Source: Actinomycetota bacterium
GTDB lineage: Bacteria > Actinomycetota > Acidimicrobiia > Acidimicrobiales > Poriferisodaliceae
Assembly (NCBI GenBank): GCA_002731665.1
Contig: PCCJ01000033.1
Location: 1-64,000 of the forward strand
Direction: 5' to 3'
DNA length: 64,000 bases
A model generated the notes under the pieces. That model was not told the origin of the DNA. It worked only from the letters and a program-made list of their open reading frames with translations, and searched no databases. Made by a program: the position numbers and the translations under genes. The first letter of the stretch is position 1, and the number at the start of each line of letters is the position of its first letter. Below are positions 1,170 through 20,390 of the stretch, piece after piece.

Positions 1170-2072
1170 TTATTCCCTACCTTTACCTTTTGCCTTTGCC
1201 GCTTTTTGGGCATTTCGCCGGTCATCCCCGGCCTGAGCTAAGGTCCCTCTGTTGCTTTCATCCACCAGCATAAATTGAGCTCGCCATGAATCGTTATTGT
1301 CGTCATCCCATACAAACGGCGTCTGGATCGTAGTCCTCGGTTCCCAAGCACGCTCTAAGGTCTCAAGACACGTCGAAACAATTGCCTGCTGCATTTCAAC
1401 GTCGTATGGCTTTCCCGTGGGGTTACCGAGGGGGAAATCTGTAAATACAAAACGAGGAACGCCACTTTCTTCGACTATGTCTCGCGCGCTACCTGCAATC
1501 ACCGTAGGTATTCCAGCGTCTTCGAGATGTCGAGCTACCAGACTCACGGTCTGGTGACACACCGGTCAGAGGGGAACGAGCAATGCTACGTCAACCTCAT
1601 CTTCAATCATCCACTTTAGAATTTGCGGTGCGTCTTTTTTCTGAGTTCGACGGTGACTGTAATCAGTAGGTACACCATAAAAACGTTTTGAGAGAGATCC
1701 TATAGTCCCTCTGCTCTCAAGTTCGCGTAGCCTATTTATCGGCAGGTAGCTGTCCAAATCTTCGGTGTGCGTGGTGTCTTTAGCCCAAAAAAGATCCTTG
1801 TTGTACAGGCCTCCAAGCGCATCATCGCACTGAGCTGCATACGGCTCTTTATCTGTCGACCCTGCCACGGCATGTCGATCAAAAGAGCGGTCAAAGAAGG
1901 AAGTCGTTACCAGACCAACGCGACATTCAGACATAGGTTTAGCCGGAACAGTAAACGGAACGTCGCAGTTGTACGACCATTGATAAGCCTGTGGATACCC
2001 TTGCGCTCCATAGTATTCTCGCGACTTGTCTATGTAGCTAACATATGAACGGTGAGTTCGTCGATCTTTCAC
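1170..2072 (-). CDS. GrdB-like reductase-family selenoprotein (in-frame TGA read as Sec)
   Basis: Read straight through one TGA (1568-1566), this frame gives 300 residues. It resembles the glycine/sarcosine/betaine/D-proline reductase selenoprotein B family. Residue 169 would be selenocysteine in the motif LVPL-U-PVCHQTV, a UxxC redox pair. The sequence on both sides is conserved-looking and in the same frame: before it IEDEVDVALLVPL, after it SLVARHLEDAGIPTV and then GVPRFVFTDFPLGNP. A hairpin matching bacterial SECIS rules starts 10 nt after the TGA. The start is GTG with AGGGG 11 nt upstream. True GrdB proteins reduce small amines using glycine-reductase partners. None are nearby, so the substrate here is unknown. 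If TGA were a stop, both halves would lack function. The coupled downstream gene is an alpha/beta hydrolase. Confidence 0.8.
1537..1555 (-). promoter_or_regulatory. Candidate bacterial SECIS hairpin of the GrdB-like gene
   Basis: On the minus strand, ACCAGAC (1555-1549) pairs perfectly with GTCTGGT (1543-1537) around a 5-base loop CGTGA. The loop begins 17 nt after the TGA. The commonly used bacterial SECIS rules ask for a short apical loop with a G among its first two bases, an upper stem of at least 4 bp and 16-37 nt from UGA to loop; all are met. The element lies inside the coding sequence, as expected for bacteria. I folded it by eye only. Confidence 0.6.
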
Positions 2073-15581: not shown

Positions 15582-16934
15582 TTAACATTTACCAGATCGT
15601 ACTAACAACGCTTGGTCGAGGCGATGATATTTATCCTCATCCTTCAAATTTGATCCCACGATAAGAGACTCTGCTGAAAGGCCGAGAATACTTTCTTGGA
15701 CTAATGAATGCCTTCTGGCTGTGTTCTCACTTACCGATTCGTCACCATTAAGGCTTCTTTCTGACGCTGCCTTAATCCACTCCTCGGGTTTACATGGAAC
15801 AACTGGAGAATCCGATGAGAAGGTCACTTCCACATCACGCTCTATCAAACTACGGACCGGCCACAGCCACTTCTGTTCTAAGCTGGTTAGCTGCTCTAAG
15901 TATTTTTGCTCTCGATAAACCAAAAAAGAAGGCTGTGTCGAAACGGCAATATTTAGTTCGCTCAATGAATCAAGTTGTTCCGGCAATGCTAGCGAACAGT
16001 GTTCAATTCTGTCTTTCACTAACTCTGGGGCGGGGCTATCCATAAATGCTAAAAGGGCATCGTTTAAGGTATCTATATCCATTGAGTGCACGGCTGTTGG
16101 GAACCCACGGATATGGGCTTGTTCGATTAGGTGACTTATTGAAGCTTTTCCCATGATGTCAGGCATTACTTTTGCATGCCCCACAGACAAGTTTCTAAAT
16201 CGCTTACCATAAAAGAGGTCGCCGAGATTTTCTGCGCCGACCATAGCCACAAGGTTTGGGCTGATAGCTGAATTGAAAAGACTATCTAGTAGCTCCAGCG
16301 AATCAATATTATTTGTGTGCGTAGCATCAGTTAACGAAACAAGGCCATCCTCTTCACACTGCTGAAACATTTTGCTCGCTGCGCTTTGAATCTTGCTTAG
16401 CGAAAGCCGCGGGACCTTAGCAAGTAGGTCATGCCTTTCCACTAAGATTTCACTCGATGTATTCGGCACTCCCAAAGCTAAGAGAGCAGCCGAGTTAGCC
16501 ACAGCCACATGACCAGTACGGTGATGAAGAATGGTCGGTATGTCGCCAGTTGCTCGGTCTAATTCTTTCCGAGTGGGATGGCGTCGTTCGCGAAGTAATG
16601 CATCGTCATAGCCCCAGACTCTTAACCACTCGCCATCATTACTTTTCGCGTCAGCTAGCGTTTGTATCAACTCTGGTATCGTTTCGCAAAAAGATACGTT
16701 TAGTGAACAGAGGCTTGCCAGCACTGACATCACATGAATATGGTCGTCTCTATACCCAGGTTGTAGCCATTCATTTTCTTTCAGTCTGATGATAGGAATG
16801 TCAGCAGAAACTGTCACGTCCAGAGCCGTAGCTACATCATCAATCAAAAGAATATTTGATGCTTCAGAATTTTGGTCACCAAACCTAGTTATCCGACCTT
16901 TGATTAGGCACGGGCCTTTCAAATCAGATGCCAA
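15582..16934 (-). CDS. Amidohydrolase family 3 (YtcJ/AepA-like) protein
   Basis: The 450-residue protein resembles amidohydrolase family 3. It has a metal-binding DDHIH (usually DxHxH) after a beta-rich N-terminal segment, a GYDDALL region, the histidine of HHRTGHVAVANSAAL, then RIEHCSL and the late SDSPVVP motif with the final metal-ligand Asp. Such enzymes hydrolyse amide or cyclic amide bonds. It is shorter than many YtcJ-like proteins (usually over 500 residues). Its start overlaps the end of the acyl-CoA ligase by 11 bases, so the two are in one operon. The substrate is unknown. Confidence 0.8.
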   Translation of the reverse strand: MASDLKGPCLIKGRITRFGDQNSEASNILLIDDVATALDVTVSADIPIIRLKENEWLQPGYRDDHIHVMSVLASLCSLNVSFCETIPELIQTLADAKSNDGEWLRVWGYDDALLRERRHPTRKELDRATGDIPTILHHRTGHVAVANSAALLALGVPNTSSEILVERHDLLAKVPRLSLSKIQSAASKMFQQCEEDGLVSLTDATHTNNIDSLELLDSLFNSAISPNLVAMVGAENLGDLFYGKRFRNLSVGHAKVMPDIMGKASISHLIEQAHIRGFPTAVHSMDIDTLNDALLAFMDSPAPELVKDRIEHCSLALPEQLDSLSELNIAVSTQPSFLVYREQKYLEQLTSLEQKWLWPVRSLIERDVEVTFSSDSPVVPCKPEEWIKAASERSLNGDESVSENTARRHSLVQESILGLSAESLIVGSNLKDEDKYHRLDQALLVRSGKC

Positions 16935-18495
16935 GTTCTTCCAAGAGAGGTATTAAGTCCTTACGTAAAAGCTTGCCTGTAGAAGTTCGGGGTAATTCGT
17001 CCATTAAATGAATTGCTTCTGGCCTTTTAAATGGAGCTAGCTTGTCTTTCGCGTAAGCAACAAGTTCCTCTGCTGTTGTTCCGCTGCCAGGCCGAACAAC
17101 CGCAGCAGCTACCACCCGCTCGCCCCATTCCTCGCTAGCAACACCTACGACAGCGCACTCTAAAACCGTAGCGTTTTCATATAGAACAGCTTCTACTTCA
17201 TCGGGCGAAACGTTTTCACCGCCTCTGATAATCATGTCTCCAGTTCGACCACCTAGAAAGAGGTAGTCATCAATATCTAGATATCCAAGGTCACCAGTAT
17301 GAACCCAGCCCTCATTATCAACTGTAATTCGCGTTTTTTCGTCATTGCCCCAGTATCCATCCATGGCTCTAAACGTGCGTAGCTGAACTTCTCCTAGCAC
17401 CTCTAATTCTACGGGGAGACCCGCCTCATCAACTATTCTGACTTCGACGTCATCGAGCACCTTGCCTACTGAGCTTAATCGCTTAAGCTTTAGAGCTTTT
17501 TCTGCTTCGTTTCCCTCAACTCGATGATCATCTGGATCCAGAACCGCTACTGTCGAAGTAGTTTCGGTTTGGCCATAGGCTCCGGCAAATGAAACATTTT
17601 CTGGGAAGACACTAATAGCTCGACGAATAACCGATGGTGGCATCGGAGCAGCACCATAGGTTATTCCATCCATTCCTTCGAAAGCGGTCTTACTAAAGTT
17701 GTCAGCTTCCATAACCCTAGCGAGCATCGTTGGAACTAGAAATGCATGAGTTACAGAATGCTTCTGAACCGTTTCAATCCATGCTGCTGCTTCAAACTGA
17801 GGGAGCAAAACGACAACTCGCCCGCTGTAGAGAGCGTTGAGCATAGAGGTGACTCCTGCTATGTGGTACAGCGGCGCGGCTAGCGCCATGCGGCCCATAT
17901 CTTCACCTGATGCTGCATCATTTGAGCCCATTACGTATCCGGTGATAGCACCATTCGTTAATTTGACGCCTTTCGGCATCGACGTTGTTCCACTCGTATA
18001 CAGCAGGGCACACAGGCCATCGAAATCAACATCTTCAGGAACTGGCAGTTCAAAAGCACCATCTCGAGCTGCCACATAAGATTCTGCGACGTCAAGCATA
18101 AATACGTGCTCGACGGTCGCTGGTCGATTATCGGCGACAAGCTGTGCATAGCGACTTTCAGTAAACAAGACTTTGACACCACTGTCGGCCATCAAATGAG
18201 CCGCTTCCTCAGCTCCCGCTCGGAAATTCATCGGGACGACAGTTGCTCCAACAAACGCCGCACCGAAGATAGCTTCAACGCAAGCAACACTGTTTGTTGC
18301 AAAGATTCCCACTCTGTCGCCAACCTCCACGCCGAGGGACGACAACATTCCAGCTACTTTGCTTGTGTTCTCTAGTAACTCTGCGTATGTAACTTCTCGA
18401 GCAACACCGCCGTCTATCTCCGTAGAAGTGTCGATAAGAATTACTTGATCTCCAGCTATAGACGCCGGCATAAATAAGAGCATTCCTAAATTCAC
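16924..18495 (-). CDS. Acyl-CoA synthetase (AMP-forming, ANL superfamily)
   Basis: The product is a 523-residue adenylate-forming ligase. It contains the phosphate-binding LLYTSGTTSMPKGV, the GAYGQTETTS motif, the adenine-site HTGDLGYLDIDDY, the hinge GGRTGDMIIRGGENVSPDE and the C-terminal catalytic lysine in RTSTGKLLRKDL. It activates a carboxylic acid to its CoA thioester using ATP. I chose the GTG at 18495 because a textbook AGGGGAG lies 5 bases before it. An upstream ATG at 18711 would add 72 poorly conserved residues that overlap the divergent selenoprotein gene. It heads the operon with amidohydrolase and two CoA-transferases, suggesting that the pathway starts from a free acid. Confidence 0.92.
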   Translation of the reverse strand: MNLGMLLFMPASIAGDQVILIDTSTEIDGGVAREVTYAELLENTSKVAGMLSSLGVEVGDRVGIFATNSVACVEAIFGAAFVGATVVPMNFRAGAEEAAHLMADSGVKVLFTESRYAQLVADNRPATVEHVFMLDVAESYVAARDGAFELPVPEDVDFDGLCALLYTSGTTSMPKGVKLTNGAITGYVMGSNDAASGEDMGRMALAAPLYHIAGVTSMLNALYSGRVVVLLPQFEAAAWIETVQKHSVTHAFLVPTMLARVMEADNFSKTAFEGMDGITYGAAPMPPSVIRRAISVFPENVSFAGAYGQTETTSTVAVLDPDDHRVEGNEAEKALKLKRLSSVGKVLDDVEVRIVDEAGLPVELEVLGEVQLRTFRAMDGYWGNDEKTRITVDNEGWVHTGDLGYLDIDDYLFLGGRTGDMIIRGGENVSPDEVEAVLYENATVLECAVVGVASEEWGERVVAAAVVRPGSGTTAEELVAYAKDKLAPFKRPEAIHLMDELPRTSTGKLLRKDLIPLLEELGI

Positions 18496-18597
18496 GTTAA
18501 CTCCCCTGTACGGAATCCGAGATGATCCCAATAGCACACTAGGTGCCTTAAACAAATTATCCGACTCTCTTGGCGAATAGAAAGCTAGTCTGCCATT

Positions 18598-19221
18598 ATG
18601 TCGAAGAATATTGAATTTTGGATAGACCCTCTCTGACCTTGGTGTTGGGTGACAGCCCGTTGGGTTGTCGAAGAAATAGCTGAAAAGAGAGACCTGGATA
18701 TCACATGGCAACCAATAAGTTTATTATTCAAAAATAATCCGCCTGAGGACAGTTCCTACTATCAAAAATCAATAGCAACTCACAAGATGCTTCGAGTAAT
18801 GGAATCAGTGCGTTCTGTTGACGGAGATCAGGCTCTATCTAGCCTGTACTGGGAATTTGCTTCTCGAATCCATCATGATAAAGACTTAAATTTCGACATT
18901 GCAGATGCGCTCAATGCAACTAAATTAGACCAATCTCACGCCAGAGCAGCAGATGAAGAGCGGTGGGATTCCATTATTAGACAGCGCATGGATGCAGGCC
19001 TCGAGCTCGTTGGAGATGATGTCGGCACACCCATAATTGCATGGAACCGGTCCGATAATAAACGAATAGGTATCTTTGGGCCGGTAATAACTAGAGTTCC
19101 AAAAGGACCTGATGCTTTAAAGCTTTGGGATGGAATGCTTATGCTGGGTGATGTTGATGGTTTCTGGGAGTTGAAGAAGACTCGTAATCAGAGTCCCGAG
19201 TTCGGAGAGCGACCAAATTGA
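18598..19221 (+). CDS. DsbA-family (Rv2466c-like) oxidoreductase selenoprotein, UPWC active site
   Basis: From the ATG at 18598 the frame gives 207 residues if TGA at 18634-18636 is read as selenocysteine (residue 13). The N-terminus then reads MSKNIEFWIDPL-U-PWCWVTARW, a thioredoxin-fold strand followed by the active-site U-P-W-C. The rest matches DsbA-like proteins related to the mycothiol-dependent nitroreductase Rv2466c: ARWVVEEIAEKRDLDITW, a helical insert, then GTPIIAWN before the cis-Pro region and IGIFGPVITRVP. Starting at GTG 18649 would remove the catalytic strand. A SECIS-like hairpin follows. The ribosome-binding site is weak. Its stop overlaps the TTG of the amidohydrolase. It is divergent from the acyl-CoA ligase operon. 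Confidence 0.85.
18651..18669 (+). promoter_or_regulatory. Candidate bacterial SECIS hairpin of the DsbA-like selenoprotein gene
   Basis: GACAGCCC (18651-18658) pairs with GGGTTGTC (18662-18669) in an 8-bp stem with one G-U pair and a GUU loop. The loop starts 22 nt after the TGA and its first base is G, as bacterial SECIS rules require. A competing hairpin (TGGGT/GCCCG with loop GACA) overlaps it but has a shorter spacing of 14 nt. Pairing was judged by eye. Confidence 0.6.
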
Positions 19222-20390
19222 GACTTGATATTTTCAACGAACTAAAAGTGATAGACACCGACAGCCACTGGTCCGAGCCATATGACCTATGGACTAGCCG
19301 GGCTCCCGCTAAGTGGAAAGATCGAGTTCCTCAGATGGGCGAACGAGGGGGAAAAAAAAGATGGTGGTTCGACAAAGATATCCCTATCGGATTGCCGATT
19401 GCTTCTTCTGTTGTTGATACTGAAGGGCGAAAGATTACTGGTACCGCTTTCTTTGATATGGACAATGAGATGGTTCATAGAGCAAGCTTCGAATCGGAAG
19501 CTAGAACCGAGATGCTTGACGTTTTAGGTATCCACGCGCAAATAATGTATCCAAATGTTGCAGGCTTCGGGAATCAGAATTTCCTTAAATCCGCCGACAA
19601 TGAGCTGCGCCTTCTTAGTGTCTCAATATATAACGATGCCCTAGCTGAATTCCAAGAAGATACAGGTCAACGCGTTTTCGGAATGGCGCTACTCCCATGG
19701 TGGGACCTAGAAGCTTCAGTAGCAGAAGTCAAGCGAGCTCATAGTAACGGCCTACGAGGAATAGTCACCTGCGCCAATCCAGAAGAAGCGGGTATGCCTG
19801 ATATGGCCACCTCTGACTGGAACCCAGTTTGGGAAGTATGTTCAGAATTAAATATGCCTATAAATTTCCATATCGGTTCATCTAAGGGAAATCTTGATTT
19901 CTTTGGGAATGCTCCATGGCCTTCGTTTGGAGCCGAAAGAAAACTAGCGGTTGGATCTGCCAATTTATTTATGGGAAACGCACGAACAGTAGGTAATTTA
20001 ATATATTCGGGCGTTCCCGAAAGATTTCCTGAACTTAAATTTGTTTCAGTTGAAAGCGGCATCGGGTGGTTGCCATTTTTCTTAGAAGTTTTAGATCATC
20101 AAATGTATGAAACGGCTCCACACGAATTATCAGAACTTTCAATTCTGCCGTCTGAGTATTTCAAACGACAGTTTTACGGTTGCTTTTGGTTCGAAAAATC
20201 AACTATCAAACCAACAATAGATTTCCTGGGAAATCAGAGCGTAATGTTTGAAACTGACTTCCCTCATCCAACGTGTCTGTATCCCAGGGATGATGACTCT
20301 CTTCATGCAGCTCTGGCGGGGTTAAGCAATGACGACATACAGGCTATTTTTCAGGACAATGCTGCGAGTCTCTATAACATAGCCATTTAA
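19218..20390 (+). CDS. Amidohydrolase family 2 metal-dependent hydrolase/decarboxylase
   Basis: The 390-residue protein is of the same family as the one at 9028-10230. It starts with VIDTDSHWSEPYDLW (metal site), has the barrel histidine in INFHIGSSKGN, an ESGIGWLPF block and the C-terminal FETDFPHPTCLYP with the conserved Asp. Known relatives decarboxylate or hydrolyse aromatic and carbonyl acids. The TTG start overlaps the stop of the selenoprotein DsbA gene, so translation is coupled. This makes a redox partner or shared detoxification role worth considering. A long hairpin follows immediately after the stop. Confidence 0.87.
   Translation: MRLDIFNELKVIDTDSHWSEPYDLWTSRAPAKWKDRVPQMGERGGKKRWWFDKDIPIGLPIASSVVDTEGRKITGTAFFDMDNEMVHRASFESEARTEMLDVLGIHAQIMYPNVAGFGNQNFLKSADNELRLLSVSIYNDALAEFQEDTGQRVFGMALLPWWDLEASVAEVKRAHSNGLRGIVTCANPEEAGMPDMATSDWNPVWEVCSELNMPINFHIGSSKGNLDFFGNAPWPSFGAERKLAVGSANLFMGNARTVGNLIYSGVPERFPELKFVSVESGIGWLPFFLEVLDHQMYETAPHELSELSILPSEYFKRQFYGCFWFEKSTIKPTIDFLGNQSVMFETDFPHPTCLYPRDDDSLHAALAGLSNDDIQAIFQDNAASLYNIAI

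Follow-up and report, generated by a model that had tools for sequence, protein, structure and literature searches.

Rv2466c (Mrx2), a mycothiol-dependent nitroreductase of the DsbA–Mrx1 cluster, works with a nucleophilic cysteine, Cys19, and a resolving cysteine, Cys22 (PMC8280269, PMC11841060). Its cluster also holds NCgl2478 and NCgl2339 of Corynebacterium glutamicum, both with a CPFC site, the former preferring MSH/Mtr/NADPH (PMC8280269). DsbA-like selenoproteins with a UxxC site (U, selenocysteine; Sec) have been described from marine metagenomes, in the Sargasso Sea in 2005 (COG2761; PMC1088965) and in GOS in 2008 (DsbA 1 and 2; PMC2398784), and a 2026 review gives DsbA-like protein form 1 under PF01323 (PMC13188914). 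Our literature search found no publication joining Rv2466c and selenocysteine, and the titles and abstract openings covered (PMC9437257 among them) do not describe the protein reported here.

The window analysed here is a stretch of 64,000 nucleotides, whose forward strand carries an Rv2466c-like gene at 18598..19221. From its sequence we consider this gene likely to encode a selenoprotein counterpart of Rv2466c, a cytosolic DsbA-like reductase that depends on mycothiol, with a product that would use Sec and mycothiol jointly; that Sec is inserted at the TGA at 18634–18636 appears near certain. The protein resembles Rv2466c in family (PF22234), in fold and in an xPWC site with a resolving cysteine, but differs from it in having Sec for the nucleophilic cysteine and in overall sequence (32–35% identity to the structures matched).

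With the Sargasso and GOS DsbA selenoproteins it shares the DsbA superfamily, the UxxC site and a marine setting; the published descriptions of those groups compared here name no Rv2466c, mycothiol or actinobacterial host. Since our protein also exceeds the PF01323 cut-off (28.6 versus 25.6 bits), some of the Sargasso and GOS reads may belong to its gene family. The published group may instead be of the type of L289, a DsbA-type UPWC protein with an in-frame TGA (G042, contig C11, 80–724, reverse strand; one example), because this fits PF01323 much better (80.7 versus 28.6 bits). L289 comes from the same taxonomic family, has no PF22234 match and is distinct from the PF22234 family of the gene at 18598..19221.

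An Rv2466c-like gene with an in-frame TGA

The frame opens with ATG at 18598–18600, continues through MSKNIEFWIDPL to the TGA at 18634–18636, reads on as PWCWVTARW and stays open up to the stop TGA at 19219–19221, just as the earlier note on this DNA had it. The product has 207 residues with Sec as residue 13, aligned to the nucleophilic Cys19 of Rv2466c; the codon of the resolving cysteine (Cys16, second of the UPWC pair, homologous to Cys22 of Rv2466c) lies at 18643–18645. Matching to PF22234 (Rv2466c-like) is strong and complete (142.8 bits against a Pfam gathering cut-off of 27, E 1.7e-41, profile positions 1–180 of 180), and a sequence search of the PDB matches Rv2466c at E 2.7e-38, all four matched sequences being Rv2466c or close kin. 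A search of NCBIfam profiles with the protein gave no match. An AlphaFold2 model of the protein (pLDDT 94.5, 32 sequences) finds in Foldseek, as its best ten hits, Rv2466c or the Mycobacterium leprae structure 4wkw (best E 1.6e-16, TMq 0.78–0.83), so that the predicted structure has the Rv2466c fold.

The Sec codon among relatives

Within the nearest family the gene is present in 34 of 39 genomes and has TGA at the Sec codon in all 34; an in-frame TGA kept in this way among orthologues and aligned to cysteine in homologues is the pattern by which a selenoprotein is recognized. The nearest genome compared, G001, has 23% of sampled words in common with the window. The five family genomes from which the gene is absent (G023, G028, G044, G045 and G046; 74–92% complete) count against our reading. 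Across the order Acidimicrobiales the Sec form occurs in at least 59 of 298 genomes and at least 11 families, a count that takes in a divergent copy in G320 (L256) and leaves out G272 with a more distant UPWT copy (L288); in G205 the retrieved part covers residues 74–206, with the Sec codon outside it. Because the TGA recurs in every family orthologue and so widely in the order, it is not there by chance. In a draw of 396 genomes from the phylum, 72 match at E ≤ 1e-30; among these the Sec form turned up in G001, G019 and G073, all three from the same order as the window. The four rows with a listed TGA that come from beyond this order each have TGC in the Sec position.

We assembled 167 de-duplicated loci, picked by similarity and including paralogues, after removing duplicates and loci with too little sequence around the codon. 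At the Sec position 100 have TGA and 67 have TGC or TGT, with no other codon and never TAA or TAG. The proposal that the TGA occupies the place of the first cysteine of a CPWC site is thus borne out by U-P-W-C at this point and by cysteine in 67 of 67 non-TGA loci, the alignment check that had been suggested for it. The resolving cysteine is kept in all 100 Sec loci. Two Sec copies (L243 and L247) have UPFC instead of UPWC, recalling the CPFC of NCgl2478 and NCgl2339; these are cysteine enzymes, unlike the Sec form, and are likened to it by description. Sec and Cys forms occur together in two genomes, G188 and G303. A plasmid search matched 33 records, every one below 60% identity.

Fourteen loci read later (13 with TGC or TGT, one with TGA) and L289 stand outside the codon and hairpin counts. 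Low-identity homologues listed with a TGA were considered as further Sec forms and set aside: 21 of the 22 fetched have a Cys codon, TGC or TGT, where Sec would be, their TGA elsewhere probably being a run-on stop, and the one exception, with TGA at the Sec position, is L288.

A covarying SECIS-like hairpin

Within the coding sequence, on the same strand, a SECIS-like hairpin occupies 18651..18669; its 8-bp stem, GUU loop (18659–18661) and start 14 nt after the TGA are as first noted. It folds with a minimum free energy (MFE) of −15.7 kcal/mol over 42 nt (z −2.69 relative to 200 dinucleotide-shuffled versions; 4 of these fold at least as well). The published bacterial SECIS model asks for a loop of 3–9 nt, a stem of 4–16 bp, G in the first two loop positions, a spacing of 16–37 nt and an MFE of at most −7.5 (PMC13188914), and the hairpin fits it with a loop of 3, a stem of 8, G first and a spacing of 22 nt. 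A read-through scan of the window returns seven TGA candidates, two of which have a hairpin passing the script's stem, loop and spacing rules: the TGA at 18634 (9 bp as counted there) and one at 1568 (7 bp). An Rfam search of the window gave no match.

The stem is better kept than its codons require. A set of 72 Sec loci forms 7.81 of 8 pairs on average, and synonymous recodings of them average 6.30 (sd 0.11; maximum of 2,000 draws 6.62); for 36 Cys loci the corresponding means are 4.25 and 4.13. Among the 100 Sec loci, 77 have 8 pairs, 20 have 7 and 3 have 6; among the 67 Cys loci, 57 have 2 to 5 pairs, and only L083 and L165 have 8. A low-stringency test (stem of at least 6 bp, MFE at most −7.5) is passed by 98 of 100 Sec and 17 of 67 Cys loci. 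The hairpin covaries, most visibly at pair 20–32, which joins two third-codon positions and in the 100 Sec loci is GC in 82, AT in 7, TA in 4, GT in 3, CG in 2, TG in 1 and a GG mismatch in one. In 27 hand-picked sequences two pairs change on both sides; slid registers give none and 17 of 500 shuffles equal that, the sequences being related, so that such changes are not independent events. In Sec forms the peptide encoded by the hairpin, T-A-R-W-V-V, hardly varies (T 100, A 99, R 100, W 100, V 97 and V 100 of 100 loci); Cys forms vary more here, the pattern that selection on the RNA would produce.

The start codon and the meaning of the TGA

Gene-calling places the start elsewhere. Open-reading-frame callers use the GTG at 18649..18651 (forward strand), probably not the true start, and were the TGA a true stop, the product made from this GTG would be 190 residues long and lack the first strand together with the initial residue of the active site, the loss of the catalytic strand that the earlier note had argued. 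Such a start looks plausible in so far as 52 of the 120 public homologues listed (of 2,806) begin just past the Sec codon, and are thus annotated without their catalytic residue, and in so far as ATG or GTG stands at this place in 90 of 100 Sec loci. The remaining 10 Sec loci, however, have GTT, GTA, GCA, CAG or ATA there, with no ATG, GTG or TTG, and the codons 5′ of the TGA encode a conserved first strand in the 100 Sec loci (F 97, W 98, D 100, P 100); the other 68 listed public homologues are full-length, with CPxC in each. The covarying hairpin, the restriction of the codon to TGA, TGC or TGT in 167 loci and the missing catalytic residue of the shorter product also speak against it. On the conserved 5′ strand, the hairpin and the non-start codons we reject the GTG as start and hold translation from it to be highly improbable. 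Close relatives that start at the GTG and lack the N-terminal strand had been named as the case against Sec: the start is indeed what gene callers predict for many public homologues, but in the 100 Sec loci compared here the strand is encoded all the same. A nonsense mutation or sequencing error at 18634 could make a single TGA in one step, but every one of the 34 family orthologues has the same TGA, which recurs in at least 11 families of the order; already contradicted by these comparative data, it is rejected with next to no probability left to it.

Selenocysteine machinery and other selenoprotein genes

The sel genes, which the earlier note had proposed looking for, are present in relatives: SelA, SelB, SelD and tRNA-Sec (SelC) all occur in G001, where SelA adjoins SelB and ARAGORN also calls the tRNA-Sec; on the window itself ARAGORN finds no tRNA. 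SelB is above its cut-off in G001 and in 12 other family genomes sampled. Across the order it is found at E 1e-62 in 171 of 298 genomes (163 above the curated cut-off), namely in 58 of the 59 listed Sec-form genomes, the exception being G251 (76% complete), against 113 of the 239 others (Fisher p 2.9e-15, uncorrected for kinship). The tRNA-Sec search scores 64–69 bits in 32 of 39 family genomes; lower-scoring matches are no evidence, because the search also responds in all 14 control genomes. SelD matches occur in 36 of the 39 genomes of the family, and every one of these 36 has a TGA somewhere within a match. SelA and SelB have been noted in most bins of sponge symbionts (PMC5649159).

The other scan candidate belongs to a second selenoprotein gene at 1170–2072 (reverse strand; TGA at 1568 followed by the 7-bp hairpin), PrdB/GrdB-like with a UPVC site and scoring 98.2 bits against TIGR04483 (cut-off 300). 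PrdB/GrdB-like matches occur in 39 of 39 family genomes, up to five in each, with a TGA inside every row listed, and PrdB selenoproteins with UxxC are known from GOS (PMC2398784).

Mycothiol-type genes and the proposed reductant

The best MshC match scores 382–432 bits in 35 of 39 family genomes and 274–335 bits in the other four (G024, G045, G046 and G047), and in these four may reflect CysRS or a copy that is weak or broken. MshA-like genes occur in 36 of 39 at E 1e-80, a level also reached in two control genomes out of 14, those of C. glutamicum and Deinobacterium. A different thiol pathway has a homologue of MshA, namely BshA. A mycothione-reductase-like gene (Mtr) is full-length at 574–620 bits in 26 of 39 genomes and in pieces in 11 more, other full-length matches in that search reaching at most 279 bits; G025 and G038 have no such match above the level of other flavoproteins. 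In most family genomes the best MshC- and Mtr-like matches stand well above paralogues, yet below the equivalog cut-offs: those of NCBIfam for MshA, MshC and Mtr are passed by 0 of 39 family genomes each. The search for mycothiol genes that had been proposed is therefore answered in part, with MshA-, MshC- and mycothione-reductase-like genes found in the family but none over an equivalog cut-off, and we read them, short of proof, as the probable mycothiol pathway of a deep lineage. The distance between SelD and the mycothione-reductase-like gene is 1.3 kb in G001 (L191) and 2.3 kb in G013 (L193), hinting at a linked selenium–mycothiol redox system.

Beside the CysRS-like match, 16 of 39 family genomes have a second MshC-like match of 354–422 bits (L093 in G030, L094 in G002 and others). 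A TGA inside this second gene in several genomes was considered as marking a selenoprotein and rejected; in L093, the one example read, it stands just ahead of the likely ATG.

We infer decoding, reductant and substrates as follows. The hairpin just after the UGA at 18634 would recruit SelB carrying Sec-tRNA(Sec), so that Sec is inserted where Rv2466c has its nucleophilic cysteine. The selenolate would then attack a disulfide, a mycothiolated protein or another electrophile, as in Rv2466c; the adduct would be resolved by Cys16 or mycothiol; and mycothiol, mycothione reductase and NADPH would reset the enzyme.

An enzyme with Sec but independent of mycothiol, either reduced by thioredoxin or acting in a catabolic step with an amidohydrolase and CoA-linked enzymes, draws on the neighbourhood, which looks catabolic rather than redox and counts against our preferred reading. 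An amidohydrolase gene (PF04909) at 19218..20390 on the same strand, a possible operon partner, has a TTG start overlapping the stop codon of the selenoprotein gene, and in 28 of the 81 loci compared a relative of it is the gene's neighbour; every one of these loci is Sec-form, and in 27 the neighbour has the same strand and spacing. Upstream and divergent is an AMP-binding acyl-CoA synthetase-like gene (16924..18519, reverse strand; PF00501, PF13193), whose start is not fixed (ORF call to 18711). Shadow ORFs in high-GC loci confuse the clustering of neighbours, and we rely on the amidohydrolase alone. The low standing of the Msh and Mtr matches against equivalog cut-offs leans the same way. 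Yet 53 of the 81 loci, some being cut short, show no such neighbour; the closest solved relatives are Rv2466c, reported as mycothiol-dependent (PMC8280269, PMC11841060); and the full-length mycothione-reductase-like matches score more than twice any other full-length match of that search. Independence from mycothiol thus seems to us doubtful, if still deserving some weight, and a Sec enzyme coupled to mycothiol is the reading we prefer.

Probable gain and loss of selenocysteine

A quick tree with many weak forks holds 167 proteins, 101 Sec and 66 Cys (the short L175 and L176 were left out). The Sec label changes nine times on it, at least five by starred branches, against a mean of 52 for shuffled labels, and one group unites 100 Sec with 14 Cys forms (support 93, not starred). 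The Cys gene L083, from the 4.8 Mb one-contig genome G170, has a hairpin identical to those of Sec genes and falls into a group (support 98, starred) together with another Cys gene, L084, and two Sec copies, L243 and L247. From its Sec-type hairpin and its grouping with these Sec copies, L083 is most simply, and likely, a Sec gene that reverted to cysteine and retained its hairpin as a fossil SECIS. The 8 pairs of L165, a distant Cys gene, probably arose by chance. Two copies are more divergent: L256 (G320), a long-branched UPWC Sec copy whose SECIS-like hairpin has changed on both sides at some pairs, and L288 (G272), whose UPWT site is without the resolving cysteine and whose similar hairpin makes 7 of 8 pairs by eye.

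Implications

We are evenly divided on the broadest claim, that this would be the first mycothiol-coupled selenoenzyme, Sec having entered the Rv2466c family in Acidimicrobiales, perhaps repeatedly (the main UPWC group, L256 and L288), and having sometimes reverted to cysteine, leaving a fossil SECIS. If true, it joins selenocysteine and mycothiol, two redox systems linked in no paper that we found. The natural Sec/Cys pairs within G188 and G303 may tell what Sec buys within one fold, and L083 offers a likely Sec-to-Cys reversal with the hairpin still in place. This marine actinobacterial gene occurs in many related bacteria, and automatic annotation tends to trim its front end, including the reactive site.
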